Shown in pieces: positions 226 through 58,351 of a stretch of DNA of 58,351 nt (positions are counted from its first letter, which is position 1; each line of letters begins with the position of its first letter). This stretch comes from Tannerellaceae bacterium (GTDB lineage Bacteria; Bacteroidota; Bacteroidia; Bacteroidales; Tannerellaceae). Under the pieces are notes generated by a model. It was given only the letters and a program-made list of their open reading frames with translations, was not told where the DNA came from and did no database searches. Location of the stretch: the NCBI GenBank assembly GCA_031280435.1, contig JAITGS010000003.1, positions 1 through 58,351 of the forward strand, written 5' to 3'. The position numbers and the translations under genes were made by a program.

Positions 226-473
226 AAGCTCGCCGCTGCCGTCGAGGGCCTTCGTCCGAAAAAAATAAGCTCGCCGCTGCCGTCGAGGCCCTTCGCCCAA
301 AAAAAATAAGCTCGCCGCTGCCGTCGAGGGCCTTCATCCGAAAAAAATAAGCTCGCCGCTGCCGTCGAGGGCCTTCGTCCGAAAAAAATAAGCTCGCCGC
401 TGCCGTCGAGGGGCTTCGCCCAAAAAAAATATGCTTGCCGCTGCCGTCGAGGGCCTTCGTCCGGGAAGATTAT
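226..473. repeat. Tandem array 1, six units of exactly 41 bp
   Basis: The segment CTCGCCGCTGCCGTCGAG begins near 229 and recurs at 41-bp steps (unit anchors 228, 269, 310, 351, 392 and 433). It is an imperfect palindrome: CTCG-N-CG ends mirrored by CG-N-CGAG around a central 4 bp. The spacer between palindromes is GGCCTTCGTCC followed by an A-run and TAAG, with small variants (CCTTCGCCC, CCTTCATCC, GCTTCGCCC). It lies just downstream of the rsmD stop. No frame is kept, because 41 is not a multiple of three. Confidence 0.9.
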
Positions 474-495
474 CTGTGTCGATCGCCGGATAAAC

Positions 496-1032
496 TCAGC
501 CCCTGAAGAAGCTGAAGTTCACGGAGCCGTAAGCCCGTTGCTGCACGAATCCGGGAATGTCGGCAAAGCTGTGGGAGGCGGAATGTTCCATCACAAAGAG
601 GCCGTCCTCTTTGAGCAGCCCTTTGCGAAGTGCGAGAGGAGGAACGGTGGGGAGGGCGCTGTGGCTGTATGGCGGATCGGCGAAGATGAAGTCGAAGGGC
701 TCGCCTTTCCATTTTTGCATGAAGCGAAAGGCGTCGGTGCGAAACAGTTGCAGGGCGGAGGTTGGCAGCTCGGCGGCCACCTTGGTGATGAACGCGGCAT
801 GAGTGCGATGGTTTTCGACGGCGACAACGTGGGCGCATCCCCGTGAGATGAGTTCGAAGGAGATGCTGCCGGTGCCGGCAAAGAGGTCGAGGGCCCTGGC
901 TCCGTCGAGGTCTGTAATATTGGCAAGTACGTTGAAGAGGTTTTCTTTGGCGAAGTCGGTGGTGGGCCTTGCGCTGAAGTTCGACGGTATGGCGAAGCGG
1001 CGCCGTCCGTATATCCCGCTTATTATTCGCAT
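496..1032 (-). CDS. rsmD: 16S rRNA (guanine966-N2)-methyltransferase RsmD
   Basis: A 178-residue protein of the RsmD family, which methylates N2 of G966 in the 30S subunit using S-adenosylmethionine. It begins with MRIISGIYGRR, typical of RsmD. The SAM-binding motif LDLFAGTGSISFE is at about residues 49-60, and the catalytic DPPY motif at about 119-122. Length is normal for the family. Its start overlaps the end of the upstream DUF3822 gene by 10 bp, so the two are probably co-transcribed and translationally coupled. This pairing with DUF3822 is, from memory, common in Bacteroidales. Identification is firm. Confidence 0.95.
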   Translation of the reverse strand: MRIISGIYGRRRFAIPSNFSARPTTDFAKENLFNVLANITDLDGARALDLFAGTGSISFELISRGCAHVVAVENHRTHAAFITKVAAELPTSALQLFRTDAFRFMQKWKGEPFDFIFADPPYSHSALPTVPPLALRKGLLKEDGLFVMEHSASHSFADIPGFVQQRAYGSVNFSFFRG

Positions 1033-1847
1033 ACCGACATTAATATCAGGTCGACCGGCGCCTGGAGTATTTCTCCTCCAAGGAAATAAGCTTTGGCCGG
1101 GATTTCAATACTGTCGACATGCCTGATGAAGGTATGCAGCGTGAGTAGGGCCTGGTTGGTGACGGAGGCGTCGCCGGATATGGAAAGGCGATCGTTGAGC
1201 TGGTCGAGCCCGGCCTGCTTCCACACGTAGCAGAGGTAGTAGATGAAGTCGCTGGTCTGGTCGTAGGTGAAGGTATTGGCAAAGATGAGCCGGCTGTTGT
1301 TGAAGCAGCAAACGTCGACCATAGATTGCCGGACTATGGCGAACATGTGCGCCTGCTTCTCTCCCCTGCATTGCTTTTTGAACATTATGAGCTGCGATGT
1401 GACGTGATGCAGGAAGATAGGATTGGTGAGGGAGCGGGCGCAGAACTCGTAAACGTCTTCGTCGGCTGCAAAGACGAGTTCGGCCTGTTCGTCGTCTATG
1501 CGGTTTGAGAGGATGCGCTTCTCCGGCGCGAAAAAATTGTAGGCAAGCAGTTCGGAGCGCTTCTTGCTGTCGGCGCACTCGTCGGGCACGAGGGTGTATT
1601 GCTGGGTTACGCAAAGCACTTTGGTGCGCTTATAGTTCCAGATGAGGCAGTCGTTAGAGAAGAAGACTTCCTTCAGCGATTGCTTGTAGGGTATGGTTTC
1701 GTCGAACTCCACATCCCTGAAGAAGAAGCTCTGCGCCTCGGCCGGATTGTGTGCGGAAAAAGAAAATCCACCCGGCTTTAACCGGATGGACATTATATAC
1801 TTTTCCGAACTGTTGACATTCAACGTATCAGGGATGCTGATCGTCAT
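1023..1847 (-). CDS. DUF3822 family protein
   Basis: A 274-residue soluble protein resembling the Bacteroidota-specific DUF3822 family, whose function is not established. Recognisable features are the opening with several beta-strand-like segments, the central CNN/FANTFTYDQTSDFIYYLCYVWKQ stretch, and the C-terminal SISGDAS segment; this family looks ASKHA-like in overall pattern. No signal peptide or membrane segment is seen. It sits between a membrane-anchored protein (15 bp upstream) and rsmD (10-bp overlap), in one operon. The ATG at 1847 is used; a second in-frame ATG lies 18 codons in. Confidence 0.8.
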   Translation of the reverse strand: MTISIPDTLNVNSSEKYIMSIRLKPGGFSFSAHNPAEAQSFFFRDVEFDETIPYKQSLKEVFFSNDCLIWNYKRTKVLCVTQQYTLVPDECADSKKRSELLAYNFFAPEKRILSNRIDDEQAELVFAADEDVYEFCARSLTNPIFLHHVTSQLIMFKKQCRGEKQAHMFAIVRQSMVDVCCFNNSRLIFANTFTYDQTSDFIYYLCYVWKQAGLDQLNDRLSISGDASVTNQALLTLHTFIRHVDSIEIPAKAYFLGGEILQAPVDLILMSVCE

Positions 1848-1862
1848 GATGCTCAGTATGCT

Positions 1863-2513
1863 TTAGAGGTCTTCCCAATTGCCGGCATAGTTGTTGATTT
1901 CTTCGAGCGATCCGACGCGCCGTCCGGGATACTTCTTCAGCGTGAGGGCTACGGCGTCGAGGTTGACTATGAGCTGCCTGTTGAGGCCGCGCAGATAGTC
2001 GTCGTATGATACGGATGCTTCGAATACTTTCACCGAATATCCCGACGGCGAGAGGATGGTGGCGGTATCCATATTGAACTCAAGCGGCGTACCGTCGCTC
2101 TTTTTGACGTTCGGAACGAACCTCAGGTCGGCGGCGTTGAAACCTGAGCCGAAGAGTGTGTCCTTGGCCAGAATCCAGAAGGTATCTCTGGTGATAAAGC
2201 CTTTCTTGATGGCTTCCTGCTCGGTCATGCCGGCCTCGAGCTGTTCGTCGGTCAGGACTCCCTCTTTCATGATGAAGGGGAGCTTTTCGTTGTTCAGAAA
2301 TTCGGCGAGCCTGTCGAAGCTCGGCGTATGCTCCTTGTATACGTTCTTGTATTCAATCTGAGCTTTACGGATGTCGATAAGACGAGCGATGATAGCTGTT
2401 TCTCTGATTTTCTGCTCATTCTGGAAAGTAATAGGAACGAGCAAGCTTGCATAGCACATGTAGGCCAGCAGTAAAACTGCGCCTAAGAGGATGATTCTAA
2501 TTGTAATCTTCAT
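1863..2513 (-). CDS. Conserved membrane-anchored protein, unknown function
   Basis: A 216-residue protein starting MKITIRIILLGAVLLLAYMC, i.e. a single N-terminal membrane segment with the rest predicted outside the cytoplasm. A longer frame could begin at a TTG at 2549, but the ATG at 2513 gives a proper hydrophobic N-terminus and follows a promoter-like box at 2547-2554, so I chose it. The body is mixed helix/strand with acidic stretches (residues from about 30: ETAIIARLIDIRKAQIEYK, coiled-coil-like). I recognise it as the kind of protein found beside DUF3822 and rsmD in Bacteroidales, but assign no function. Confidence 0.75.
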   Translation of the reverse strand: MKITIRIILLGAVLLLAYMCYASLLVPITFQNEQKIRETAIIARLIDIRKAQIEYKNVYKEHTPSFDRLAEFLNNEKLPFIMKEGVLTDEQLEAGMTEQEAIKKGFITRDTFWILAKDTLFGSGFNAADLRFVPNVKKSDGTPLEFNMDTATILSPSGYSVKVFEASVSYDDYLRGLNRQLIVNLDAVALTLKKYPGRRVGSLEEINNYAGNWEDL

Positions 2514-2546
2514 GGTGGTATAATGATTTTTAAATTGTTTGCCCGG

Positions 2547-5977: not shown

Positions 5978-6835
5978 GATGCCGCAGCGGCAAAGCAAAT
6001 TTTTTTTCCCCGCCCCTTTGCCGCAGCGGCAAAATGCCCGGCAAAACCGTTTGGAACCAATGCCGCAGCGGCAAAGCCCTCAAATCGACTTCCGGAGGCC
6101 TTTGCCGCTGCCAACTTGTCCCCAAATCGCTTTCCGGAGCCCTTTGCCGCTGCCAATTTGTCCGCAAATCAACTTTCAGCGACCAATGCCGGCCCTTATC
6201 ACCCCCAAAAACGGCCTTTTTTGCCCATTGCCGCAGCGGCAGAGCCTTCCCGCAAAAAAATTGGCCCCATTGCCGCAGCGGCAAAGGTATGAGAGGGGTA
6301 GGCCGGCCCCATTGCCGCAGCGGCAAAGGTATGAGAGGGGTAGGCCGAGGCCATTGCCGCAGCGGCAAAGGTATGAGAGGGGTAGGCCGGGCGGGTCAAT
6401 GCAGGTGCTGCAAAGCCGATTTTTTTTCAGGCCTTATTGCATCAGCTGCATTTTGCCCCGGAAATTAATTTGGAGCCAATGCAGGACATGCAAAGGCCCC
6501 AAATCGACTTCCGGAGGCCTTTGCCGCTGCCAACTTGTCCCCAAATCGCTTTCCGGAGGCCAATGCAGCTGCCAATTTGTCCCCAAATCGCTTTTTTGTA
6601 ACCGATGCAAGCCTTAATTTACCCCCAAAACGGCCTTTTTTGCCCTTTGCATGTCATGCAGAGGCTTCCCGCAAATAATTTGGGCCCTTTGCATGTCCTG
6701 CAAAGGGATGAGAGGGGCTGGCCGGGGCCTTTGCATGTCCTGCATTGGGATGGGAGGGGTCGGCCGGGGCCTCTGCATGTCCTGCATTGGGATGGGGGAG
6801 GCGATTTGGGGCCGTTGTGCATTAATCACGGGCAT
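5978..6835. repeat. Tandem array 2, about 20 palindromic units at 42-bp spacing
   Basis: This fills the space between divergent lepA and xerD. The 'GC' opening of the palindrome sits at about 5981, 6020, 6062, 6104, 6146, 6188, 6230, 6272, 6314, 6356, 6401, 6439, 6481, 6523, 6565, 6607, 6649, 6691, 6733 and 6775, with a weaker one near 6819; nearly every step is 42 bp. The palindrome differs along the array: TTGCCGCAGCGGCAAA, GCAGGTGCTGC, TTGCATCAGCTGCATT, GCAGGACATGC, GCATGTCATGC and GCATGTCCTGC. Spacers fall into a few types, one ending in GAGAGGGG(T/C)(A/T/G)GGCCGG and one carrying CCAAATCG(A/C)(C/T)TTCCGGAG. The last unit abuts the xerD promoter. Confidence 0.9.
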
Positions 6836-15457: not shown

Positions 15458-15614
15458 TGTTTATAATATATTGTTTTTTTGATACATGCGGCAAAGGTAC
15501 GCAAAAAAAAACTCCTCCGCAGGCGAAAGCAGCCCCCGGCCGGCCTCCACACCTTTTCCGCCTGCCCACACGGGGGTAAGAGGGGTGCAAAAAGGAATTC
15601 CCGACTGGGAAACA

Positions 15615-15781
15615 GGTCATTCCCGCGAAGGCGGGAATTCGAAGCAAGCTTTAAGCTTGCGAGAAGCGACGAAGTCAATCTCCGATCGATAGTTGGGACG
15701 ATAGTAGTTGTATCAAATAAAAAAAGAACTACAATCGTAACCGTTTTTCGATCGGAGATTCCCGCCTTCGCGGGAATGACC
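15615..15781. repeat. Inverted-repeat element I, copy A (167 bp)
   Basis: The ends are GGTCATTCCCGCGAAGGC and its inverted copy. Each end is itself a small hairpin (CCCGC-GAAG-GCGGG reading). This copy carries an extra piece in the left arm with its own GCAAGCTT/AAGCTTGC hairpin (about 15641-15660). Outside the element, a further perfect 17-bp inverted repeat, CCGCCTGCCCACACGGG, flanks it at about 15560 and 15780. No coding capacity for a transposase. It resembles a MITE or a large REP-type palindrome. Confidence 0.85.
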
Positions 15782-15837
15782 CGTGTGGGCAGGCGGAATT
15801 AGCTTTGACCCCTCCCCCGACCCGTAGGGGCAGGCCT

Positions 15838-16035
15838 TTTTTTCCGCAGGGAATTGTAATCTTGCAGAAGCTCCGATTTTTTTCCGCAAGGAAATGCAGG
15901 TCTGCAGAAGCTCCGATTTTTTTTCCGCAAGGAAATGCAGGTCTGCAGAAGCTCCGATTTTTTTCCGCAAGGAAATGCAGACCTGCTTTTCTACCGGGTG
16001 ATTTAGGGGAGGAAATGCAGGTCTGCTTTTTCTTC
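15838..16035. repeat. Tandem array 3, five units at 40-41 bp
   Basis: Five units have anchors at about 15856, 15896, 15937, 15977 and 16017. The palindrome is ATGCAGGTCTGCA (GCAG/CTGC arms), or GCAGACCTGC in the fourth unit. The spacer contains GAAGCTCCGA, a T-run and CCGCAAGGAA. The array lies between inverted-repeat element I copy A and the DUF6261 gene promoter. Confidence 0.88.
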
Positions 16036-17223: not shown

Positions 17224-17381
17224 CACATATAATTAACTTAAAATAAAAAATGTTTGTTGAGGTTATTCTTTCATGTGAATTAACTAATATGCTGCAAAGG
17301 TAAGCTCCGGAAGCATTCGGTTATTCTCAAAATCAATGTTTTAATTGACGATAATCTTTGGCGGAGGCAAAACTTACGGAT

Positions 17382-17503
17382 GGGGACTTCTAATAGTTAG
17401 ATTTTTCAAGGCTTGCGACGGAGGCAAATGCGGAGTGTACTTTAGTACATGAGCATTTTGCCGACCGAGCGAAACGCAGAAAAAGCAATTAGTAGAAGTC
17501 CCC
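17382..17503 (-). repeat. 122-bp hairpin element II, copy 1
   Basis: The ends GGGGACTTCTA and TAGAAGTCCCC are inverted copies. The core holds GCAAATGCGGAGTGTAC next to a GTAC(T/A)3GTAC palindrome and a GCATTTTGCC motif. Relative to the other two copies it is inverted. It ends 4 bp before the stop codon of the S37 peptidase gene. No ORF of note. Confidence 0.88.
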
Positions 17504-30546: not shown

Positions 30547-30560
30547 TGCGTGCGGGGGGC

Positions 30561-32048: not shown

Positions 32049-32070
32049 GAACAATTCCCGTTCGAAAAGC

Positions 32071-32194: not shown

Positions 32195-32306
32195 ATTTGG
32201 GTAGGCTGAATTACCTTTTGACACATTTACCCCCCTATTTTTTGAACTTAAAAGTGTCGGCATGGGTTAGAGGCTGCCGGAGCAGGCGCTTTCGGCTATC
32301 ACTTGA

Positions 32307-32428: not shown

Positions 32429-32497
32429 ATAAGACGGTACAATTTGCTCGCAAGGCCGGCATCTGCCCTTCTGCCAATGCCTGCGGCCTGTTTGTGC

Positions 32498-33157: not shown

Positions 33158-33239
33158 TATGTTCTGTTTTTATACGGTTTGATTATTTGATATTACTGAG
33201 ATTCCCGGCAACCTGCCTCAAAGTTCTGCGGACATTCCC

Positions 33240-33440: not shown

Positions 33441-33599
33441 GGGATGTCCGGAATACATTACGACAATGCGCATGTACAAAGGGGAATGTGATATTTATAT
33501 CAGAGAATATTGCGGCCATAAAAGGGATATACCAATGTTGTCATGCATATAACGAAGGTAAAGATAGAAATGTTATTGGTTTTTCGGCTTTAGTCCGGC

Positions 33600-34430: not shown

Positions 34431-34451
34431 TCGGATGTGTTGTTATTGGGT

Positions 34452-36696: not shown

Positions 36697-36731
36697 TTTA
36701 TACTTTTTTTGTTTTCCGATTATTGGTGCGG

Positions 36732-36739
36732 CAAAGATA
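36732..36739 (-). promoter_or_regulatory. Predicted -7 box TATCTTTG of purM
   Basis: An exact TAnnTTTG match on the minus strand, 36 bp upstream of the ATG at 36696. Confidence 0.6.
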
Positions 36740-36783
36740 GGTATTAAAAGGGAGGGGTATTGAGCCCCTCCCGTCGTACAACA

Positions 36784-36905
36784 GGGAACTTCTACTAATA
36801 GCTTTTCCTGCGTTATGCTCCGGCGGCAAAATGCTCATGTACCGAAGTACACTCCGCTTTTGCCTCTGTCGCAAGCCTTGGAAAAGCTAATTATTAGAAG
36901 TTCAC
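36784..36905 (+). repeat. 122-bp hairpin element II, copy 3
   Basis: The ends are GGGAACTTCTA and TAGAAGTTCAC. It is the most diverged of the three copies (for example TACCGAAGTACA where copy 2 has TACTAAAGTACA), yet exactly the same length. It lies between the purM promoter and the stop codon of the DUF1080 gene. Confidence 0.88.
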
Positions 36906-36932
36906 TTTATTGATTAGGATTAATTTTTGATT

Positions 36933-37658: not shown

Positions 37659-37850
37659 TTGGGATTAAAATTTAAATTGTTGAAATAACGGCCCGAAGAT
37701 AGCGATTAATTTGAATGAGCTATGCCATGTTGAAAAAAAACGCTTCGCTAATATTGCATACATTATAATTAGTACCGAACTTTACGCCCTCAAATCTTAT
37801 ACAAACGCACATGAGTGCATTGTCAAACATAATAAACTTTAAACAATAGA

Positions 37851-38291
37851 ATGATGGATAACAAGAAACCGGAATTTTATGTTCCTCCCCCCGAATTAGA
37901 GATGGATAATCCTCCTCCGCCCAAGCAGCTTCCGGCGCCGCCTCACATAGCTTTCGTTGATACCGTTACCGATGTCCTCACCGGCCGGGCCGACGTCCTG
38001 ATTCCCGGCCGCGAAGTGTGCATCAAAGGCAGCCTCATCAAAGTTACCCCCGACGACGAGCCGGGCCTCGGAGTTTTCCTTGTGCCTTACGCCAAAGACG
38101 AAGAGCCCGATATAGCCTTTCTGGTGGAGCTCGTCGAGAACGTGCGCCACATGATCAAGTTCCTGGTACCTGAAGATTTGCCAAAGGGCAAATATCTGCT
38201 GCGTATAGTAACCCGATATTCAGGCACCAATTTCCTGAAGTACCAAAGGTTTATCGACTATAAAAATATAGTTAGCTGCAAAGCCGATTAA
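37851..38291 (+). CDS. DUF4469-like protein with Pro-rich N-terminus
   Basis: A 146-residue protein. The first about 35 residues are proline-rich (EFYVPPPELEMDNPPPPKQL). The rest resembles DUF4469, an immunoglobulin-like beta domain: VLIPGREVCIKGSLIKVTPDDEPGLGVFLV, then the VENVRHMIKFLVPEDLPKGKYLLRIVTRYSG ending. In many Bacteroidota this domain follows an HU-like DNA-binding domain; that domain is absent here. The start may be either of two adjacent ATGs (37851 or 37854). Stand-alone gene with a terminator. Confidence 0.65.
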   Translation: MMDNKKPEFYVPPPELEMDNPPPPKQLPAPPHIAFVDTVTDVLTGRADVLIPGREVCIKGSLIKVTPDDEPGLGVFLVPYAKDEEPDIAFLVELVENVRHMIKFLVPEDLPKGKYLLRIVTRYSGTNFLKYQRFIDYKNIVSCKAD

Positions 38292-38351
38292 GGGAAATGG
38301 CAGTGGGTAGAATCCCACGCTATTGTGTTTTCGTTAGTTTTTATTTGTTAG

Positions 38352-38384
38352 GCCTCAGTGCATCCAGCACTGAGGCTTTTATTT
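38352..38384 (+). terminator. Rho-independent terminator
   Basis: A perfect 9-bp stem GCCTCAGTG / CACTGAGGC, 7-base loop, then TTTTATTT. It lies 60 bp downstream of the DUF4469-like gene. Confidence 0.85.
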
Positions 38385-38604
38385 GGGGGGGTGCCGGGAA
38401 TGCCGTCGGGGGGTCGTTCAATATCAGTTATCCGTCGTTGTAATATATATATATAATGTATATGCCCCGGGATAGCTGCAAAGAGACGACTATCGGCTTG
38501 CGGGGCAATAATGTGGCGGCCGATAATATCTTCGGAGCCGCTGCGATGTCGCATTTTCTCTACGGAAGACGCCGGAGCCGGCGCGATTTGAGGTGTTCGA
38601 AACA

Positions 38605-38760
38605 GGAATTTTCGCCTGCCCAAATGTGTCAAAAGCCCTTCACGCTCGAACAATGGGTCAGGGGGGTGATGTGCGTTGTGCGTAGAGACGCGATGCATCG
38701 CGTCTCTACATTTTGAACACGACCCCTGTTGGGACAGGCTGAATTACATTTTGACACATT
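38605..38760. repeat. Palindromic mosaic (inverted-repeat element I shell with a different core)
   Basis: The left side reads CCTGCCCAAATGTGTCAAAAG, then CACGCTCGAACAATGGGTCA, resembling the outer flank of element I copy D read in reverse. The right side reads GGGACAGGCTGAATTACA and TTTTGACACATT, the tail found beside copies B and C. In between, where GGTCATTCCCGCG ends would be expected, is a 28-bp perfect palindrome (38682-38709). The rest of the 38385-38898 gap holds nothing else I recognise except a possible promoter before the next gene. Confidence 0.65.
38682..38709. repeat. Perfect 28-bp palindrome
   Basis: The half GTAGAGACGCGATG is followed by its exact reverse complement. From memory, palindromes of this kind (GTAGAGACGCG...) are dispersed repeats in several bacterial phyla, including cyanobacteria; I cannot check this here. 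No T-run follows, so it is not a standard terminator. Confidence 0.85.
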
Positions 38761-38851
38761 CGGCCTCAAAATCTCTGGGATTTCCTGTCGGGGCGTTTGG
38801 CCCACCGGCGCGGATGAGGCAGGGGGAGCCTTGAGGTTTCGGAATAATTCG

Positions 38852-38859
38852 TATTTTCG
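38852..38859 (+). promoter_or_regulatory. Possible -7 box TATTTTCG
   Basis: One mismatch to TAnnTTTG, 39 bp upstream of the ATG at 38899, with a TTG at 38831-38833 near the -33 position. Confidence 0.4.
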
Positions 38860-38898
38860 TGCACTCAAAAAGTTTATTAATATAAATATGTTCAGACA

Positions 38899-40320
38899 AT
38901 GAAGCAACTTCTACTGACAACTCTGGCGTTCATAATGCTGTCGGCAGCCACATCCGCCCAGAATCCCGTTATATGCCGTTTGGGTTTCGCCTACGACCTT
39001 AGCCGGTCGCTTAATTGGGGGAAGGGCAAACCTGTGGTCACTAAGATCTATCCTTATTCGCCGGCCGAACGGGCAGGCATCAAGCTATTCGACGTAATCG
39101 ACGCCATTGAGGGTGTATCCACCACGGATATGACGCCTCCGGAGCTCACCGCCATGATGAATCCCGACGGGAAGACCGAGGTGAGCCTGCTTATCTCCAA
39201 CCTCAGCGAATCGGGCAAGACTGTGATTGTGCCCAAAGATTGCAAGCGAACGGATGCCATCTCGGAAGACCAGCTTGCGGTTGCCTTCTCTATGTACAGC
39301 CCTGAGAATACGAGCGAGAGGGTCTTTGTATGCCCGTTCAAGACGGGGATAACGGCCGATACGGTTAACTTCAATCGCTTCACATATTTCGCTTTTGCAC
39401 CAGTCGACGAGGCTAATGCACGCATAGAAACGGCCATCAATGCCGCGCTCGAGAAGGAGTTCAAGAAGAAAGGCCTCTCGTATCGGGCCTACGACCCCGA
39501 TGTGCTGATAGAAACCTTTTACTCCTACGGCAAGAATCCCAACTTCCGCAAGTCCGGCATAGCAGCAAAGAGCCGTCAGCTCGTCTACCGGTACGACTTC
39601 TCGCTGAGCCGCATGGAGCGCTTCCCCTTCCTGGAGCAGGGAGTGCCCGAATCGGAGGCCGAGTATCTCCTTCAGCTCGGCGTCAGGATGATCGACAAGA
39701 GGGTCAAGCCCGGACGGATACTCTGGGAAGCGGAGGCCAACGAGCTGCTCTCGGCGCCGTACAGGCTCGAAACCTATGCCCAGAGCCATATACCGCTGAT
39801 GTGCATGCAGTATCCCTACGTGAAATATACCCGCAACGTGCAGTTCCTCGTATCCATGAAATCCTTTAACTATACAGGCATAAGCTACGACATCAACAAC
39901 CTGGCGACGGTGATGAGCGTAGACTTGAACTCGCCCGCCCATGCTGCCGGCATACGCATACGCGACATCATTGAGAAGATAGACAACCAGAGCATGGAAC
40001 ATACCGCCGAGGAATTTACCGCCGCCTACAAGCAATTTATCGCGAACACCATGCCCCTCAGAGACGAGTCGACGGTCTTTACCGATGCCAACGGCTTCAA
40101 GCAATGCATGCAGTGGGACAAGATGAAGTACGTACAGGTACTGGACGCCATGCAGAACCCCTATAACATGACGGCCTTCGCCTACCTCTATAAGTTCGCC
40201 CCATACATGAGCCCCACGGGCACCAACTCCTGCACCTTCGTCATACGACGCGGCCGCAACCGCAGCGAAGCCCTGATTCGACCCGCCATCCATACCGAAA
40301 CAACAGTAGAGATAAAGTAG
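38899..40320 (+). CDS. Exported protein with two PDZ-like domains around a DUF4136-like domain
   Basis: A 473-residue protein with a signal peptide (MKQLLLTTLAFIMLSAATSAQ). An N-terminal PDZ domain (about 40-115) has VTKIYPYSPAERAGIKLFDVIDAIEG. A middle domain (about 155-290) starts NFNRFTYFAFAPVDEANARIETAINAALEKEFKKKGLSYRA, which resembles DUF4136 (outer membrane or periplasmic, unknown function). A second PDZ-like domain (about 325-400) has VMSVDLNSPAHAAGIRIRDIIEKID. No protease domain is present. PDZ domains bind peptide C-termini, so a scaffold or chaperone role in the periplasm is plausible but only inferred. Confidence 0.72.
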   Translation: MKQLLLTTLAFIMLSAATSAQNPVICRLGFAYDLSRSLNWGKGKPVVTKIYPYSPAERAGIKLFDVIDAIEGVSTTDMTPPELTAMMNPDGKTEVSLLISNLSESGKTVIVPKDCKRTDAISEDQLAVAFSMYSPENTSERVFVCPFKTGITADTVNFNRFTYFAFAPVDEANARIETAINAALEKEFKKKGLSYRAYDPDVLIETFYSYGKNPNFRKSGIAAKSRQLVYRYDFSLSRMERFPFLEQGVPESEAEYLLQLGVRMIDKRVKPGRILWEAEANELLSAPYRLETYAQSHIPLMCMQYPYVKYTRNVQFLVSMKSFNYTGISYDINNLATVMSVDLNSPAHAAGIRIRDIIEKIDNQSMEHTAEEFTAAYKQFIANTMPLRDESTVFTDANGFKQCMQWDKMKYVQVLDAMQNPYNMTAFAYLYKFAPYMSPTGTNSCTFVIRRGRNRSEALIRPAIHTETTVEIK

Positions 40321-40408
40321 GCGCCGCCATGCCGAACCGGAACCACGACTGTCATATCATCTTCATATATTCATAATTCATCATCCATAACCCATATAAT
40401 CAGCCCTC

Positions 40409-42820
40409 ATGTTTTCTCCTCATAACTTTGAGCAAAAGATAGGGTTCGACAAGCTGCGCGCGCTGCTGTCGGACAAGTGCCTTAGTTCGCTCGGACAAGG
40501 ACGGACGGAGGAGATGGCCTTCACGGCCGACTTCGATCGGATAAGACGCATGCTCAGCCAAACCGACGAGCTCCTGAGCATTCTGCAAGGCGATCGGGAA
40601 TTTCCCGCCTCCTGGTTTTTCGACCTGCGCGAATCGCTCAAGCGCATACGTCCCGAAGGAACTTTCCTCGAAGAGGAAGAGCTGTTCGACCTGCGCCGGT
40701 CGCTGGCAGCCGTCCGCGACGTAGCAGCATTCCTGTCCGGCGGCGACGAGCCCGGCTATCCGGCGCTGCGGGAGCTGTCGGCCGACGTGCCCCTTTTCCC
40801 TAAGATCATAGCCGCAGTCGACAGGATTCTCGACAAAGCCGGGCGGATTCGAGATGATGCATCGCCGGCCCTCGCCCGCATAAGGCGCGAGATAGTCGAC
40901 ACAGCCGCAAGCATCTCCCGCAGCCTTAGGGCCATCCTGCGATCGGCGCAGGAGGCCGGCACGGTAGACAAAGACGCTGCGCCAACCCTGCGCGACGGAC
41001 GCCTCATGATTCCGGTTGCACCCGCCTTCAAGAGGAAGCTCCGCGGCGTGGTGCACGACGAATCGGCCAGCGGCAAGACTGTCTTCATCGAACCGGAGGC
41101 CGTAGTGGAAGCCAACAACCGCATACGAGAGCTGGAGGCCGAAGAGAAACGCGAAATAATACGCATACTGATCGAGATGACCAACGCCATACGGCCGCTG
41201 GCCGAGGAAATGATGCAGGCCTACGAATTCCTGGCCGACATAGACTTCATACGCGCCAAGGCCCTGCTCGCCCGGCAAATTAGCGCCATACGGCCCACGG
41301 TGGAAAACCGGCGGCAAATCGACTTCGTCCGGGCCGTGCATCCGCTCCTGTATCTGTCGCACATACCACGGCACAGCGAAGTAGTGCCGCTGGACATTCA
41401 GCTCGACGACGAGCGCAGGATACTGCTTATTTCGGGCCCGAATGCAGGAGGCAAATCCGTATGTCTGAAAACCGTAGGATTGCTGCAATACATGATGCAG
41501 AGCGGACTGCTCATCCCCGTCGGCGAAGGCTCGCGCGCCGGCATCTTCGCCGAAATATTCATAGATATAGGCGATGAGCAGAGCATAGAGAACGACCTCA
41601 GCACGTACAGCTCACACCTTATTAATATGAAGCTCATCGACAAACAGGCAGGGCCTCAATCGCTGATATTGATAGACGAATTCGGCAGCGGGACCGAACC
41701 GCAAATAGGAGGAGCCATAGCCGAAGCGCTGCTCCGACGATTCAACGACAAACAGTGCTACGGACTTATCACCACCCACTACCAGAACCTCAAGCAGATG
41801 GCCGGCGAAACCCCAGGCATAGTCAACGGGGCAATGCTCTACGACAGGCAAAATATGAGGCCGCTGTTCCAGCTCGCGGTCGGGCATCCGGGAAGCTCCT
41901 TCGCAATAGAAATCGCGCGCAAGATAGGACTGCCGGAAGAGGTTATTGCCGAAGCATCGCAAAAAGTAGGAGCCGACTATGTCAACATGGACAAATATCT
42001 GCTCGACATAGTTCGCGACAAACGATACTGGGAGAACAAGCGCGAAAATATCCGCCGGCAAGAAAAGAAGCTCGACGAACTCATCTCCCGAAACGAGCGG
42101 CAGCACGACGAGCTCGCCCTGCGGCAAAAAGATATTATCGCCACGGCCAAAGAAGAAGCCGCCCGGCTTGTGGCCGAAGCCAATGCACGCATCGAGCAAG
42201 TGATCCGGCAAATAAAAGAGGCGCAGGCCGAGAAGGCGCTCACCAAGGAAGCGCGCCAATCGCTGGCCGCCTTCCGCACGTCGCTGGCCGAGCCCGAAGC
42301 AGCCGCAGCCTCCGACTCCGGCACGCGCCGCCCGGCAGCTGTCCGCAAGGAATCCCTGAGCGTGGGCGACAAGGTGCGGCTGCGCGGACAGCAATCCGCA
42401 GGCGTAGTGCTCGAAATAGGCAGCAAGGAAGCCACCGTAGCCTTCGGGATGATCAAAAGCACCGTGAAGCTCGCCAAGCTCGAAAAAGCCCCGGCCGACC
42501 GTCCCGCCGCAGACCATCGCAAGGCCACATTCCTTAGCGCCAAAACCACCGACGAGATGCGCGAGCGCAATCTGCGCTTCAAGCCCGAACTCGACATCCG
42601 CGGCATGCGGGCCGACGAAGCCCTGCAAGCCGTAGCCTATTTCATCGACGATGCCATCCTCGCATCCGTCTCGCCCGTCCGCATACTGCACGGCACCGGC
42701 ACAGGCGCTCTGCGCAGCGTAGTGCGACAGTATATAGGCGCGGCATCCGGCATCCGAAGCTTCAGGGACGAGCACGTGCAGCTCGGAGGCGCCGGCATCA
42801 CCGTAGTAGAATTAAGCTGA
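40409..42820 (+). CDS. mutS2: Endonuclease MutS2
   Basis: An 803-residue MutS2-type ATPase/nuclease that acts on recombination intermediates and, in some bacteria, rescues collided ribosomes. The MutS core and clamp (about 1-320) lack the mismatch-recognition domain of MutS1. Walker A is GPNAGGKS near 343-350 and Walker B LILIDEFGSGTEP near 418-430. A long coiled coil (about 510-630) and a KOW-like segment (VGDKVRLRGQ) follow, and the C-terminal Smr nuclease domain has LDIRGMRADEAL near 728-739 and LHGTGTGALR. Length is normal. It is transcribed alone, upstream of array 6. Confidence 0.96.
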   Translation: MFSPHNFEQKIGFDKLRALLSDKCLSSLGQGRTEEMAFTADFDRIRRMLSQTDELLSILQGDREFPASWFFDLRESLKRIRPEGTFLEEEELFDLRRSLAAVRDVAAFLSGGDEPGYPALRELSADVPLFPKIIAAVDRILDKAGRIRDDASPALARIRREIVDTAASISRSLRAILRSAQEAGTVDKDAAPTLRDGRLMIPVAPAFKRKLRGVVHDESASGKTVFIEPEAVVEANNRIRELEAEEKREIIRILIEMTNAIRPLAEEMMQAYEFLADIDFIRAKALLARQISAIRPTVENRRQIDFVRAVHPLLYLSHIPRHSEVVPLDIQLDDERRILLISGPNAGGKSVCLKTVGLLQYMMQSGLLIPVGEGSRAGIFAEIFIDIGDEQSIENDLSTYSSHLINMKLIDKQAGPQSLILIDEFGSGTEPQIGGAIAEALLRRFNDKQCYGLITTHYQNLKQMAGETPGIVNGAMLYDRQNMRPLFQLAVGHPGSSFAIEIARKIGLPEEVIAEASQKVGADYVNMDKYLLDIVRDKRYWENKRENIRRQEKKLDELISRNERQHDELALRQKDIIATAKEEAARLVAEANARIEQVIRQIKEAQAEKALTKEARQSLAAFRTSLAEPEAAAASDSGTRRPAAVRKESLSVGDKVRLRGQQSAGVVLEIGSKEATVAFGMIKSTVKLAKLEKAPADRPAADHRKATFLSAKTTDEMRERNLRFKPELDIRGMRADEALQAVAYFIDDAILASVSPVRILHGTGTGALRSVVRQYIGAASGIRSFRDEHVQLGGAGITVVELS

Positions 42821-42880
42821 TTTGCCGGGACTTGCCTCTGCCGGCCAACACGGCGCCGGACCCTCCCCAAAAAATCCGAA

Positions 42881-42900
42881 AGCCAAACCGACATCGGGAG
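42881..42900. repeat. Detached unit of array 6
   Basis: AAACCGACATCGGG (centre 42892.5), preceded by AAAAATCCGAAAGCC, closely matches the first unit of array 6 near 43260 with its AAAGAATCCCGAAAGCC spacer. Element I copy C and its flanks lie between the two, which suggests insertion into the array. Confidence 0.7.
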
Positions 42901-42983
42901 CCGTCGGAGGGGTATTTTTTAACAGGTCACGCTCGTAAAACGGGTCGGAGGGGGTGCAAGAGAGAGGTCACGCTCGTAAAACG

Positions 42984-43109
42984 GGTCATTCCCGCGAAGG
43001 CGGGAATCTTCGATCGAAAGTTGGGACGATAGTACTGTTTTATCCTCAAAAAAGAACTACAATCGTAACCGTTTTTCGATCGGAGATTCCCGCCTTCGCG
43101 GGAATGACC
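42984..43109. repeat. Inverted-repeat element I, copy C (126 bp)
   Basis: The ends GGTCATTCCCGCG and inverted copy are as in the other copies. Here the inverted repeat extends outwards: TCACGCTCGTAAAACGGGT on the left is matched by ACCTGCTTTACGAGCGTGA on the right, giving arms of about 43 bp. The left outer arm itself occurs twice, exactly 41 bp apart (AGGTCACGC at 42924 and 42965). Confidence 0.9.
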
Positions 43110-43239
43110 TGCTTTACGAGCGTGAAGATCTCTACACGCCCTCATGACCTGCATGGGCAGGCGGAATGACTTTTTGACACATTTACGCTCTTGAAAAGAT
43201 TTTCCGGAGGGAAAACCGGCCTCAGGCACCTTCAAAAAG

Positions 43240-43725
43240 AATCCCGAAAGCCAGCCCGACGTCAGTTTACCTCAAAATTTTTTTCCGCAAGGAAAACCGA
43301 CGTCAGTTTTGCTTGAAATTTATTTTTTGGAGCAAAACTGACGTCGGTTTTCCTTGAAATTTTTTTTTTGGAGCAAAACTGACGTCGGTTTTCCTTGAAA
43401 AAAAATTTTTGGAACAAAACTGACATCAGTTTTCCACAAAAAAAATTTTTTGGAGGCAAACTGATGTCGGGCTACCTCAAAAAAAATTTTTTGGAGGCAA
43501 ACTAACGTCGGTTTGGCTCCAAAAAAATTTTTTGAGCCAAACTGACGTCGGTTTGGCGCCGGATGTTATAGGTGAGCCAAACTGACGTCGGTTTGGGGCC
43601 GGATGTTATAGGTGAGCCAAACTGACGTCGGGCTGGCGCCGGATGTTACAGGCAGGCCAAACTGACGTCGGTTTGGCGCCGGATGTTATACGCAAGCCAA
43701 ACCGACGTCGGGCTGGGCTGCGGAT
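43240..43725. repeat. Tandem array 6, twelve units at 40-41 bp
   Basis: The centre of the dyad (A)AAC-N-GACGTC-N-GTTT sits at 43260.5, 43301.5, 43342.5, 43383.5, 43424.5, 43465.5, 43506.5, 43546.5, 43586.5, 43626.5, 43666.5 and 43706.5: six steps of 41, then five of 40. Examples of the dyad are AAACTGACGTCGGTTT, AAACTGACATCAGTTT and AAACTGATGTCGGGCT. Spacers change from a TTGAAATTTTTTTTGGAGC type to a GGCGCCGGATGTTATAGG type along the array. Confidence 0.93.
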
Positions 43726-43798
43726 ATTATGCGCAGGAGATGAGCAAACAGTATTCCTCGCCTGAATTAAGGAATATATCAAAACAATTCGAAAAACG

Positions 43799-43926
43799 GG
43801 TCATTCCCGCGAAGGCGGGAATCTCCTTGCAAGAAGACGGGACGATTGTATAATCCTTAGACGCAAAGGGCTGATACAATCGTCCCAACTATCGCTTGGG
43901 AGATTCCCGCCTTCGCGGGAATGACC
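43799..43926. repeat. Inverted-repeat element I, copy D (128 bp)
   Basis: GGTCATTCCCGCG ends as in the other copies; inner inverted pair GGGACGATTGTA against TACAATCGTCCC. Outer flanks TTCGAAAAACGGGTCATT and the reverse complement of AATGACCCATTGTTCGA also match imperfectly. It lies between array 6 and the Ig-like lipoprotein gene. Confidence 0.9.
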
Positions 43927-44028
43927 CATTGTTCGAGCGGAATGATTGTTTGAACAACGCCGTTCCCAAAAAGATCTTCCGTGAGCCGGATTCACGGTTC
44001 ATAAGTTTGATTTCCTTATTTTTGCTCC

Positions 44029-45930
44029 ATGAAACAGTTTGCAAACATCTCCGTTATTATTTTTCTTGTCGGTCTGGCCTGGTCGTGCGCCAATATAGGT
44101 GCGCCGAACGGGGGGCCGTATGATGAGCGTCCGCCGCGGTTTATCAGCAGCAAGCCGCTGCCGAATCAGCTTAATTTTAAGGGCAAGACGATAGAGATTC
44201 AGTTCGACGAGCTTATTGTACTCGACAAGCCGAGCGAGAACGTGATAATCACTCCGCCGCAAATCCTGCTTCCGGTGATAATGGCCGAAGGACGCAAGGC
44301 TGTTGTGGAGCTCAAGGATTCGCTTAAGGACAACACCACCTATACTATTGATTTCACTAATTCTATTGGTGACAATAACGAGAAAAATGTTTTGGAGAAC
44401 TTCACCTTCGCTTTCTCCACTGGCGATATTCTTGATTCGCTTGAGGTTTCGGGGCATCTGCTCGCTGCGGATAATCTGGAACCTATGCAGGGCATCGTCA
44501 TAGGGCTGCACGCCAACCTGAACGATTCGGCTTTTGTGAAGGATGCTTTTCTGCGGACGTCGAAGACCAACGACCGCGGCCGGTTTGTTATCCGCAATAT
44601 CGCCCCGGGCTCCTATCGCATCTTTGCGCTGAACGACAAGAACCGCGACTATCGCTTTGACCAGCCGGGCGAGGATATAGCCTTCGGCGATTCCATCATT
44701 GTCCCAACTTTTGTTTATACCTCCAGGCAGGACACCACCTGGAAGGATTCGCTTACGATAGACACGATTCGCACCCTGCCCTACACTCGTTTTCTTCCGG
44801 ATGACATAGTGCTGCGCTTGTTCAGGGAGAATTTTCAGCGGCAATACGCCCTGCGGCACGAGCGCACCGAGGCGAACCGCTTTAGCCTGCGCTTCAATGC
44901 TCCGCTGGACAGCATGATTGTCCCTGTGCCTATAAATTTTTCGGCAGAGGATGAATGGTATATTCCGCAGCCGGCTGATGGCGGTACAAGCATTAATTAT
45001 TGGATAACGGACTCGATGGTGTGGCGGATGGATACGCTGCGGATGGCTATAACCTATCCGGCCAGCGATTCGCTCAACCTGCTGCGGCCGCAAACCGATA
45101 CGGTGTCGCTGAGCCTGAGGGCCCGCCCGCGCAACGAGCCGCGACGCCGCCGCGACGCGGACGAGCCCGAGCCGCCGGCTCTGCTTCAAATGACGGCCAA
45201 AGGGGCGCAGAACCGCTACGATACGGTCTCGATTTCGTTCGACGAGCCTGTGACGGAGCTAACCAAAGATATTTTCCGGCTTGAGCTGAAAGCGGATACG
45301 CTATGGCAGGCGGCGGACTTCCGATTTTTTCCCGATACGGTCAATCCTCTCAACTTCTTTATCCTCCGCAAATGGATGTACGAGGAGAGCTATCGCCTTG
45401 AGGCCGATTCGGCGGCCGTGACCGGCATCTACGGCAAGAGCAGCGACCGTCTGAGTCTTTCGTTCGGCATTAAGCCGCGAGACCAGTACGGCCACCTGTA
45501 CGTCAACCTCGACGGCCTGCCGGACAGCCTGCCGGCCTTCGGCGAGCTGCTCGACGCCTCCGACAAGCCCGTGCGCAAGGTGAGGGCCATCGACGGCGGG
45601 CTGCTCTTCATGGACCTCAATCCGGGCAAATACGGCCTGCGACTTGTTGTGGATACAAACGGCAACCTGATGTGGGACAGCGGCAACTACGCCGAGCTCC
45701 GGCAGCCCGAAACTGTGTACTATTATAACAAGATGCTGGAGATAAAGCAGAACTGGGAGATAGAAGAGAACTGGAGCCTTGACGCCGTCCCGACAGTGCG
45801 TCAGAAGCCCATGGAGATTACAAAAAACAAGCCTAAGGCAGTGACAAAACCCATTAGAGATCATAGAAATGAAGGACGTAAAACATCGGGCAGCTCCGCG
45901 AACCCCATGGGTCGGAATCTGCCGTTCTAA
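44029..45930 (+). CDS. Ig-like (SbsA-type) domain lipoprotein
   Basis: A 633-residue lipoprotein (lipobox LAWSC, Cys20) with the standard opening of a Bacteroidota family: APNGGPYDERPPRFISSKPLPNQ followed by an SbsA Ig-like domain (FKGKTIEIQFDELIVLDKPSENVIITPP, about 50-130). A carboxypeptidase-regulatory-like domain follows (SLEVSGHLLAADN ... TNDRGRFVIRNIAPGSYRIFALNDKNRDYRFD), then more beta domains. It is probably on the outer membrane; function unknown. Its 3' end overlaps the next gene by 62 bp, a large overlap. A TATTTTTG box ends only 5 bp before the ATG. Confidence 0.85.
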   Translation: MKQFANISVIIFLVGLAWSCANIGAPNGGPYDERPPRFISSKPLPNQLNFKGKTIEIQFDELIVLDKPSENVIITPPQILLPVIMAEGRKAVVELKDSLKDNTTYTIDFTNSIGDNNEKNVLENFTFAFSTGDILDSLEVSGHLLAADNLEPMQGIVIGLHANLNDSAFVKDAFLRTSKTNDRGRFVIRNIAPGSYRIFALNDKNRDYRFDQPGEDIAFGDSIIVPTFVYTSRQDTTWKDSLTIDTIRTLPYTRFLPDDIVLRLFRENFQRQYALRHERTEANRFSLRFNAPLDSMIVPVPINFSAEDEWYIPQPADGGTSINYWITDSMVWRMDTLRMAITYPASDSLNLLRPQTDTVSLSLRARPRNEPRRRRDADEPEPPALLQMTAKGAQNRYDTVSISFDEPVTELTKDIFRLELKADTLWQAADFRFFPDTVNPLNFFILRKWMYEESYRLEADSAAVTGIYGKSSDRLSLSFGIKPRDQYGHLYVNLDGLPDSLPAFGELLDASDKPVRKVRAIDGGLLFMDLNPGKYGLRLVVDTNGNLMWDSGNYAELRQPETVYYYNKMLEIKQNWEIEENWSLDAVPTVRQKPMEITKNKPKAVTKPIRDHRNEGRKTSGSSANPMGRNLPF

Positions 45931-46744
45931 GCTTCTTGCCCTGCTCTGTCTGAGCTCTCTGTCGGTCGGCTCGGCCGGCCAGGCATGCGATTGGGGCCTC
46001 AGTCCGTTTCAGCACGGCGAGCGCGTCAATTATGACGTATATTATAAGTGGGGGCTGATAGCGTCGAAAGCCGGCTCGGCCTCATTCGAGGTTCGCGACA
46101 CGGTTCGAAATTCCGAGCGAGCCTGGCGCTATCACCTGCTGTTTCGTTCCTCCGGGATGCTCGAAACCTTCTACAAGATGCGGGATACGATGACGACCTA
46201 CTTCTCGCCTGACAACAGCATTATTTTTGCGGCCAAGATGACAGACGAAGGAGGTTTCTATCTGCTGGACGAGCTGAGCTTCAGCCGCAGCGGCGACAGG
46301 ACAAGCGTGCGCTCTTATCGCCGAACCCGCACTGCCGTCCGCATAGATACGACGCTAAGGACGGATGCATGCGCCTACGACATGCTGGGCGCCGTTATGT
46401 ATCTGCGGGCGATAGATTGGGACAAACTCCGGCCGGGCGACGAATTTTCTTTCAGGGTGCCTGTCGGCAAAAATTTCGTGAACGCCGCCTTCAGGTATGC
46501 AGGCCCGGAAACGGTCAGGCTGAACGATCCGGCGCGGTATCGCTCTCACCATTTCCATATTGACGTGTACGACCCTGCCTTTTCCCAAAGCAAAGAAGCC
46601 GCAGAGGTGTGGGTTGGCGACGACGGCAACCATCTTCCGCTCCGGGTGAGAGCGAGGCTGAAAGTGGGCGCCGTGGAGATATACATCCGGAACCCGGTCA
46701 ACCTGCGCTATCCTTTCGGCTGCAAGATTGAAACTGCGAAATGA
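45869..46744 (+). CDS. DUF3108 family exported protein
   Basis: A 291-residue protein. The N-terminus has a basic stretch then a hydrophobic segment (KLLALLCLSSLSVGSAGQAC), a plausible signal peptide; the ATG at 45869 leaves about 20 residues in front of it, so a later start is possible. DUF3108 features are FQHGERVNYDVYYKWGLIASKAGSASFEV near the start and the late WVGDDGNHLPLRVRARLKVGAVEIYI. The family is probably periplasmic and of unknown function. Overlaps with both neighbours (62 bp and 4 bp) place it in an operon with the Ig-like lipoprotein and the ABC-F gene. Confidence 0.82.
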   Translation: MKDVKHRAAPRTPWVGICRSKLLALLCLSSLSVGSAGQACDWGLSPFQHGERVNYDVYYKWGLIASKAGSASFEVRDTVRNSERAWRYHLLFRSSGMLETFYKMRDTMTTYFSPDNSIIFAAKMTDEGGFYLLDELSFSRSGDRTSVRSYRRTRTAVRIDTTLRTDACAYDMLGAVMYLRAIDWDKLRPGDEFSFRVPVGKNFVNAAFRYAGPETVRLNDPARYRSHHFHIDVYDPAFSQSKEAAEVWVGDDGNHLPLRVRARLKVGAVEIYIRNPVNLRYPFGCKIETAK

Positions 46745-53117: not shown

Positions 53118-53655
53118 TAGCCGAACAATCGGATTAGCCCCACTGCGCTTTGTTTTTAAGCCTCGAAAAGTATATTGGCCCCACTGCGCTTTGTTTTTGA
53201 GCCGTAAAAAGTGTATTGGCCTCACTGCGCTTTGTTTTTGAGCCTCGAAAAGTGTATTGGCCTCACTGCGCTTTGTTTTTGAGCCTCGAAAAGTGTATTG
53301 GCCCCACTGCGCTTTGTTTTTGGGGCGATAAAAGTATATTGGCCATACTGCGCTTTGTTTTTGAGGCGCGAAAAGTGTATTAGCCTCACTGCGCTTTGTT
53401 TTTTTTGAGCTTGACAAAGTGTATTGGCCCCACTGCGCTTTGTTTTTGAGGGCGAAAAGTGTATTGGCTTCACTGCGCTTTGTTTTTGAGCCTCGAAAAG
53501 TGTATTGTCCCCACTGCACTTTGTTTTTCATCTGTGAAAAATATATTGGCTTTGCTGCGCTTTGTTTTTGAGCTTAGCAAAGTGTATTGGCCTCACTGCG
53601 CTTTGTTTTTAGGCTTAGCAAAGTGTATTGGCCTCACTGCGCTTTGTTTTTGGGA
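53118..53655. repeat. Tandem array 7, thirteen units at about 41 bp
   Basis: The motif CACTGCGCTTTGTTTTT recurs thirteen times, mostly 40-42 bp apart, between GAAAAGTGTATTGGCC-type spacers. Together they form a 28-bp imperfect dyad, CAAAGTGTATTGG then CCTCACTGCGCTTTG, best seen at 53578-53605, where 10 of 13 tested half-site positions pair. The array lies between the small ORF and the nitronate monooxygenase-like gene. An open frame on the minus strand is an artefact of repeats without stops. Nothing is recognised in 52956-53117 or 53656-53870. Confidence 0.9.
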
Positions 53656-57356: not shown

Positions 57357-57371
57357 TTACTGGCCGTACGC

Positions 57372-58139
57372 ATGACCAACCAACGGAAAGTATACTTTGC
57401 GGCCGACGCCCATCTCGGCGCCCGCTTCCACCGGGATCCGGCAGGAGTCGAACGGCTCTTGACGGCCTGGCTAAGCGAGATTCGCGACAGCGCGGCCGCG
57501 CTGTATTTCCTCGGCGATATGTTCGATTACTGGTACGAGTACAGGTATGTTGTCCCCAAGGGATACGTCCGCTTCCTGGGTAAGCTGGCGGAGCTATCGG
57601 ATGCAGGCGTAGAGATACATTTGCTGACGGGCAATCACGATATATGGATGTTCGACTACCTGCCCGCGGAGATCAATGCCGTCATACACCGGGATATGAT
57701 TACGGTAGATTTGCTCGGCAAGCGCTTCCTGCTCGGGCATGGCGACGAGCCCGATTATCGCAGCCGCCGCTTTCGCCTTCTGCGTGCCGTGTTCCGCAAT
57801 CGCGTATGCCAGCGGCTGTACGCCGGCATACATCCCCGCTGGACGTTCGGCTTTGCCCTTGGATGGTCTTACGACAGCCGCCGAGGCGGCTTGCGGCGTG
57901 AGCATGCAGCGTCGCGTGCCGAGGCGGCCGTTGGCTATCTCACAAGCTTTGCAGAGACATATCTGAAGACCGATCCCGCTATTGATTACTTCATCTTCGG
58001 CCACCTTCATATACTTCTTGATCGGCAGCTTAGCCAAGGCTCCCGCCTGCTTGTGGCGGGCGACTGGATGCGGCTCTTCTCCTGGATAGAATGGGATGGC
58101 GATACCCTGGCTATCAAGAAGTACAGGGGCGGCGATTAA
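57372..58139 (+). CDS. lpxH: UDP-2,3-diacylglucosamine diphosphatase LpxH
   Basis: A 255-residue calcineurin-like phosphoesterase that hydrolyses UDP-2,3-diacylglucosamine to lipid X in lipid A synthesis, at the inner membrane surface. The metal-binding motifs are ADAHLG near 10-15, LGDMFDYW near 48-55, LTGNHDIWM near 83-91, LGHGDEPD near 120-127, and FGHLHI near 205-212. Length fits. It is consistent with a Gram-negative host and an LPS-kinase-like gene elsewhere in the window. Confidence 0.93.
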   Translation: MTNQRKVYFAADAHLGARFHRDPAGVERLLTAWLSEIRDSAAALYFLGDMFDYWYEYRYVVPKGYVRFLGKLAELSDAGVEIHLLTGNHDIWMFDYLPAEINAVIHRDMITVDLLGKRFLLGHGDEPDYRSRRFRLLRAVFRNRVCQRLYAGIHPRWTFGFALGWSYDSRRGGLRREHAASRAEAAVGYLTSFAETYLKTDPAIDYFIFGHLHILLDRQLSQGSRLLVAGDWMRLFSWIEWDGDTLAIKKYRGGD

Positions 58140-58162
58140 TCAGGGTCAGGCCTGATGAAACA

Positions 58163-58203
58163 GATAAGGGTCATTCCGGCGCAATGCCGTAATGACCCTT
58201 ATC
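58163..58203. terminator. 41-bp near-perfect inverted repeat after lpxH
   Basis: GATAAGGGTCATTCCGGC pairs with GCCGTAATGACCCTTATC with one mismatch, around a GCAAT loop. It can act as a terminator, although the T-run is poor. The GGTCATT core is the same as in the ends of inverted-repeat element I, so it may be a related short palindrome. Confidence 0.6.
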
Positions 58204-58225
58204 CGTTTAGTGAAGTCGCTATTCG

Positions 58226-58351
58226 CTAATGCCCATTCGGCGATCCTCCGAACGAGCATTCGGCGATCCTCCGAACGAGCATTCGGCGATCCTCCGAACG
58301 AGCATTCGGCGATCCTCCGAACGAGCATTCGGCGATCCTCCGAACGAGCAT
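58226..58351. repeat. Tandem array 8, 23-bp units, cut by the window edge
   Basis: About five units of CATTCGGCGATCCTCCGAACGAG, with CATT at 58234, 58257, 58280 and onwards in 23-bp steps. Each unit holds a dyad TTCGG-CGATCCT-CCGAA (17 bp). The array continues beyond the window. Frames that stay open through it are not called. Confidence 0.9.

Follow-up and report, generated by a model that had tools for sequence, protein, structure and literature searches.

What keeps the period of a tandem repeat constant when its sequence is not? The question is raised by a contig of 58,351 nucleotides from a Tannerellaceae bacterium (JAITGS010000003.1, assembly GCA_031280435.1), hereafter called the window. 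A preliminary description had pointed there to eight intergenic tandem arrays of different sequence, each with an imperfect palindrome in its unit and seven of them sharing a period of 40-42 or 21 bp, and had proposed that this spacing sets every palindrome on one face of the helix. Indeed, all eight arrays are present close to the coordinates first given, as judged with Tandem Repeats Finder (TRF) and by reading of the sequence, and none lies for more than half of its length within a coding-scored gene. Our best reading is that they belong to a family of palindromic minisatellites that is large and changes fast, its geometry being constant and its sequence nearly free.

Genomes and samples

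The window is one whole contig out of the 143 that make up a draft genome; the draft totals 3,057,007 bases and is 83% complete. The nearest relative of its helicase gene comes from the Tannerellaceae isolate Pc512_bin80 (79% identity), and isolate codes of this kind we take to denote a termite gut origin. Arrays were called with TRF (score 100, overlapping calls removed) in 692,323 bases of this genome. The comparison set comprised 17 congeners (G001-G017), of which the closest, G009, is a sister species sampled over 283 kb, a small part of it overlapping, and, more widely, 80 Bacteroidales loci, among which a few belong to congeners. Units were tested for palindromes against dinucleotide shuffles at a threshold of p≤0.05, the genome-wide classes on non-redundant units. 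Because a 41-bp array may be free of stop codons in more than one frame, the overlaps of crude open reading frames with arrays are mostly spurious, and the final genes were therefore called with a coding model, the arrays having been masked beforehand.

One period across the genome

In the 692-kb sample, 95 of the 125 arrays have a period of 40-42 bp or twice or three times that length: 70 lie at 40-42 bp, 14 at 81-84 and 11 at 120-126, the rest being distributed over 21 bp (10 arrays), 63 bp (3), 23, 46 or 69 bp (11) and other lengths (6). This 41-bp class makes up 3.0% of the sample, at 137 arrays per Mb. The same class is found in G009, where 26 of 46 arrays have a period of 40-42 bp and a further 11 its double or triple. 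The genome-wide scan of periods, which had been suggested for this genome and its relatives, thus reveals a sharp 40-42 bp class that is repeated in the sister species, and the period common to seven of the eight window arrays is no accident. Furthermore, when TRF arrays with a score of at least 50 are masked, the residual intergenic DNA holds 220 six-mer matches at lags 40-42, the mean over lags predicting 49.8; the same masking leaves 60 in G009, where 17.4 are expected. We read this signal as that of eroded arrays.

Nine of the 13 arrays at 21 or 63 bp are inside called genes, and the intergenic 21-bp class is therefore small; in-frame repeats of 21 and 63 bp within genes can be seen at L125:11765-13837 and L168:1760-3352. 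The arrays of 23 and 46 bp, none of which is palindromic by our test (0/8), form a family apart from the palindromic ones. A dispersed 23-bp family, CATTCGGCGATCCTCCGAACGAG and its variants, was observed at 58234-58351 of the window and at L160:7053-7236, L162:1-129 and L166:14869-15035.

A fixed dyad in a nearly free sequence

Dyads are well above shuffled controls for the 39-43 bp class in two species, 21 of 48 non-redundant units being palindromic in the source genome (2.4 expected) and 8 of 22 in G009 (1.1 expected). No enrichment was found for the units of 20-24 bp in the source genome (2/12, p=0.12). Palindromic units amount to 4/10 at 20-24 bp and 4/14 at 39-47 bp in the other congeners, and to 3/13 and 2/6, respectively, in the 80 Bacteroidales loci. 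The assertion of a palindrome in every unit must be weakened accordingly: it stands for the 39-43 bp class as a strong enrichment, and array by array in the window for three of the 12 TRF rows tested (6263-6390, 33247-33432 and 43533-43711).

The place of the dyad was measured in 28 non-redundant arrays picked solely by the presence and spacing of T[TC]CCG[CG], a linker anchor. Unit length is narrowly distributed in the 144 units so anchored (41 bp in 105, 42 in 22, 40 in 16 and 39 in one). A centre at +18.5 from the anchor gives 0.39 paired, where the other centres give 0.18-0.31, and this value exceeds all of 1000 column shuffles (mean 0.286, maximum 0.384). Three to four of the standard pair types occur at seven of the eight positions, and two to four over all, and the columns of the palindrome zone hold 0.02-0.51 bit each. 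In these arrays the place of the dyad is fixed and the sequence of the palindrome is nearly free. Of 95 units, 48 contain an A/T run of at least 5, where mononucleotide shuffles predict 6.6; in 16 of 25 cases the run is centred 0.39-0.59 unit away from the middle of the palindrome. The conservation of geometry without that of sequence, as first proposed, is therefore borne out by the period histogram, by the fixed dyad offset with its free pairs, and by arrays of like period and other sequence at orthologous sites (see below).

The idea that each array has its own sequence is true of the palindromes and fails for the linkers, one motif being common to several arrays. Matches to the linker 13-mer TTTTTCCGCAAGC number 37 in the source genome and 7 in G009, against 0-2 in each of 58 other genomes, in which the reversed control pattern gives 0-4. 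The strand of the linker relative to genes is unbiased (15:12). Two further correlations were left unused: that of T-run length with the rest of the unit (-0.98), a trivial result of the fixed total, and that of array start phase with the dyad (p~0.002, as against p~0.96 for the end phase), as TRF may choose the starts.

Change within arrays and between species

Array 2 of the window (5978-6835; TRF pieces in 6061-6796; 42 bp) is composed of two halves of ~430 bp that align with a mean column identity of 85%. Their linkers match and most of their palindrome cores differ, the first half bearing GCCGCAGCGGC and much of the second GCATGTCCTGC or its reverse complement; some second-half units have further cores, and one unit, TTTGCCGCTGCCAACTTG, is identical in both halves. 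The array is a duplication in which linkers were kept and most cores changed. In array 6 (43256-43711; 40-41 bp by TRF and reading), the linker switches midway and the palindrome is retained, and the opening units have, by eye, the palindrome in reversed orientation. Reversal in place of the palindrome centre was found in units of 6 of 132 arrays.

The sister species also differ from each other. At the site of array 3, G009 has an array (41 bp x 7.3) in which the linker is similar and the palindrome different; at that of array 4, it has 563 bp with no TRF array even at score 50. Array 7 is absent from G009, where 86 bp separate the flanking matches as against 892 in the source genome, and so is the array at L125:7454-7775. 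Conversely, the G009 arrays at L207:2573, L207:7172 and L211:2251 have no counterpart in the source genome. Upstream of lepA, three of the eight genomes of the genus that were compared carry arrays of different sequence, with periods of 42 bp in the source genome, 3x41 in G009 (where the gene beyond the array is not established as the same) and 45-46 bp in G001; no TRF array was detected in the stretch fetched from the other five. Arrays are gained, lost or rewritten between sister species.

Helical phasing

The periods of the source genome are compatible with four turns of B-DNA. The placing of palindromes on one helix face does not, however, find support as a rule, as the periods of congeners vary, with 22-23, 43-44 and 45-46 bp alongside 41-42, and unlike palindromes show no excess of 41-bp spacing. 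At 10.5 bp per turn, neither 23 nor 46 bp amounts to a whole number of turns, and 13 of the 27 arrays in the 80 Bacteroidales loci fall at 21-24 bp, the most usual range there. A helical phase lock was rejected on the count of unlike-palindrome pairs in the source genome, which number 2+4 at 41-42 bp, the other bins from 36 to 47 holding 0-6. G009 has spacing peaks at 21, 62, 82 and 103 bp, which we attribute to a second dyad of the same arrays, displaced by half a unit. Inheritance of a clade-specific unit explains the shared period at least as well as phasing does, and more simply. The congener G001 has arrays of the same style with other periods at loci L148, L215, L243 and L245: their units measure 23, 45-46 and 62-63 bp, and several look palindromic by eye.

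Gene context

In the source genome, arrays occupy 19 of 46 divergent neighbour pairs, 36 of 344 tandem pairs and 3 of 52 convergent pairs (divergent versus convergent, Fisher p=2.4e-5). The difference holds when the other intergenic DNA of a pair is required to reach 80 bp (19/43 versus 2/35, p=1e-4) or 250 bp (18/28 versus 2/9, p=0.05). The corresponding figures in G009 are 7/22, 11/135 and 1/24 (p=0.02). In tandem pairs, arrays lie no closer to the next start (median 168.5 bp) than to the previous stop (177.5 bp).

This divergent excess and convergent scarcity in two genomes, the A/T runs about half a unit from the palindrome and the fact that three of eight genomes have unlike arrays upstream of lepA would suit a selected DNA architecture between promoters, in which geometry is selected and sequence is free, the arrays being cruciform supercoil buffers, phased A-tract bends or a scaffold for a nucleoid protein. 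We nevertheless regard such an architecture as rather unlikely, since sister species gain and lose arrays, five of the eight genomes show no TRF array in the stretch fetched upstream of lepA, congeners also use periods of 22-23 and 43-46 bp, and unlike palindromes are not phase-locked. A doubtful possibility, to which we give slightly less weight, is a satellite-like system in which the shape of the unit would be selected as a topological element between promoters and a locus-specific palindrome replaced in concert across each array.

The arrays might instead act in RNA, as transcribed hairpins serving as terminators or stabilisers of 3' ends in the manner of repetitive extragenic palindromic (REP) sequences. 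Their stems adjoin T runs, and among 27 tandem cases the T run is on the strand of the gene in 18 (18:9, p=0.12); the palindromes of 24 arrays contain 64 G-T mismatches versus 33 A-C. This G-T excess stems from few arrays (10 with more, 6 with fewer) and is not decisive, and the presence of arrays in 3/52 convergent versus 19/46 divergent pairs is unlike that of terminators. Similarly, none of 19 terminator-like hits in 26500-46000 of the window falls inside arrays 4-6, in a scan that was weak (19 hits versus 21.5 in shuffles); together with the convergent depletion, it yields no sign of the stem and T run of intrinsic terminators at gene 3' ends. An Rfam search of the window gave no match. 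We thus hold a role in RNA to be improbable; any cellular role is more likely to be exerted at the DNA level.

Spread and flanks

Among 78 merged array regions of the source genome, 57 are similar to another, in clusters of up to 32. With a separate dispersed element excluded, a flank is shared with a related array in 11 of these 57 clustered regions (10 flank pairs), and two pairs of arrays are alike on both sides; some arrays have therefore moved with surrounding DNA. Could the arrays be the interior of miniature inverted-repeat transposable elements (MITEs) that a transposase has mobilised, an origin suggested for BrickBuilt of Porphyromonas gingivalis? The shared flanks, the array sequence that has 17 matches in the source genome (array 1), the filled and empty sites between species (the latter read by eye) and the 23- and 41-nt repeats described in P. 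gingivalis MITEs (PMC4596501) would all fit. On the other side, flanks are shared in just 11 of 57 regions, so that a general leader and tail of the BrickBuilt/PgRS type is not seen, and no Y1 transposase domain of the RAYT (REP-associated tyrosine transposase) type, PF01797, was found in the 83% complete genome, while the same profile matched in 5 of 14 genomes; the search did not extend systematically to other transposases, terminal inverted repeats or target duplications. Transposition as the general origin of the arrays appears to us improbable.

The dispersed element just excluded is palindromic, with a core ATTCCCGCC..GCGGGAAT, which we take to resemble dRS3 or CGTC-type REPs. It is at 15590-15816 and ~43030-43240 of the window, on both strands at many G009 sites, and in 13 of 144 flanks of arrays in the source genome. 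Another dispersed repeat, at 17376-17502, gives matches of ~46-127 bp, with many copies in G009 and G005, several of the latter close to contig ends. A recurrent palindrome, AGACGCGATGCATCGCGTCTCTAC or near variants, is located at 38670-38710 of the window and at L127:396-854, L135:736-1050 and L136:18975-19383, at the last three within tandem units of 96-183 bp.

Hairpin-driven amplification as the favoured explanation

The explanation that we favour over a selected role at the DNA level, and hold with about even confidence, is that palindromic minisatellites are amplified and homogenised through hairpins. The unit, of ~41 bp, has a variable dyad of ~16 bp and often, at a distance of about half its length, an A/T tract. 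During replication or repair, the palindromes would form hairpins and so provoke slippage and template switching, which could lengthen arrays, flip their centres and spread one palindrome along an array. The period would be passed down from the ancestral unit of the clade, and the divergent bias might arise from negative supercoiling, which favours the extrusion of palindromes, or from tolerance of inserts upstream of promoters.

Several points weigh against this mechanism. Pure slippage offers no reason for a single period across unrelated sequences, and a slippage that carries unit and linker together does not easily swap cores while linkers stay, as in array 2. In-place flips are confined to the few arrays mentioned (6/132), and common descent of all arrays is unproven, 21 of the 78 merged regions being without similarity to any other. 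The divergent bias is non-significant in G009 under a minimum of other intergenic DNA (p~0.10-0.15) and in the other congeners (9/60 divergent versus 4/66 convergent, p=0.14), and absent from the 80 Bacteroidales loci (7/180 versus 6/194 pairs). Finally, palindromes are no stronger in divergent regions (p=0.30), where supercoiling would favour them.

The arrays of the window

Array 1 (220-463, 41 bp x 6.0 by TRF and reading) has its 17 matches in the source genome on 16 contigs, itself counted and several of them partial. Its neighbour is a PF03602 gene, presumably rsmD-like, whose G009 orthologue is adjoined by a 42-bp array of other sequence. Array 2 separates the divergent genes lepA (minus strand; TIGR01393, 990 bits for a cut-off of 534) and that of a XerD-type recombinase (plus strand; NF001399, 313.8 bits for a cut-off of 279; TIGR02225 XerD, 323.4 bits, slightly below its cut-off of 329.6). 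Array 3 (15837-16035, 40-41 bp), called by TRF at 15837-15980 (40 bp) and by eye in the remainder, is upstream of prfB (minus strand), and array 4 (27520-27635, 41 bp x 2.9) upstream of a GH3 gene (minus strand); the span noted earlier for the latter, 27375-27668, takes in non-tandem sequence. Array 5 (33247-33432, 21 bp x 8.9) has the palindrome CCGGCTAAGTAGCCGG (p=0.01 versus shuffles). Array 7 (53133-53652, 41 bp x 12.6) was established by TRF and reading, and array 8 (58234-58351, 23 bp x 5.1), non-palindromic by test, is cut short by the end of the contig.

Relation to known repeats and significance

The arrays are minisatellites in that they consist of head-to-tail copies of one unit in the 10-100 bp class. 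Head-to-tail intergenic repeats are familiar as bacterial minisatellites, such as variable-number tandem repeats (VNTR) and mycobacterial interspersed repetitive units (MIRU); unlike these, the present ones have palindromic units and a single narrow period, with its multiples, over many unlike sequences. Clustered regularly interspaced short palindromic repeats (CRISPR) were ruled out, because whole units, palindrome included, recur inside an array and leave no unique spacers. In REP families the palindrome is tagged and conserved, and RAYTs are its partners. REPs and bacterial interspersed mosaic elements (BIME) are short intergenic palindromes that are sometimes in tandem (PMC3733652), a likeness to the present arrays; here, however, the palindrome is nearly free, Y1_Tnp was not found and convergent pairs are avoided, and no tetranucleotide-tagged palindrome emerges from the 28 non-redundant arrays (0.02-0.51 bit per column). 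Cruciform-capable inverted repeats of bacteria, as described in two surveys, are often at gene ends as parts of terminators (PMC6060812, PMC13155455) and are also enriched upstream of start sites (PMC13155455). Ours are likewise intergenic inverted repeats, but in arrays and with divergent regions favoured.

The closest relatives are those of P. gingivalis, also of the Bacteroidales, which has tandem repeats of 41, 23 and 22 nt, BrickBuilt and MITEPgRS/MITE464 among them (PMC4596501); the kind of repeat is therefore already known. The match is one of length only, of 23 or 41 nt between genes in the same order, and the 23-bp family here shares the unit length of BrickBuilt. Variable copy number is described for BrickBuilt and the P. 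gingivalis MITEs, and stem-loops are predicted for BrickBuilt (PMC4596501). In the same source, BrickBuilt is one 23-nt family of 19 copies, most with a leader or tail, in 0.44% of the genome (PMC4596501), in contrast to the 95 arrays of the 41-bp class in 692 kb (3.0%) found here, with many sequences and shared flanks in a minority. In the literature that we searched, outside which most subscription papers fall, only these P. gingivalis elements come close to our arrays, and no description was found of such array numbers, of a fixed dyad with free sequence, of concerted palindrome change or of the divergent bias.

If the geometry is selected, a DNA element defined by shape and free in sequence would be present in these genomes in many natural replicates, through which the action of DNA topology between bacterial promoters could be tested. 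If the process is mutational, the arrays would show palindromes seeding, rewriting and homogenising bacterial tandem repeats, and would raise the question of what leads some species to a period of 41 bp and others to one of 22-23 or 46 bp.

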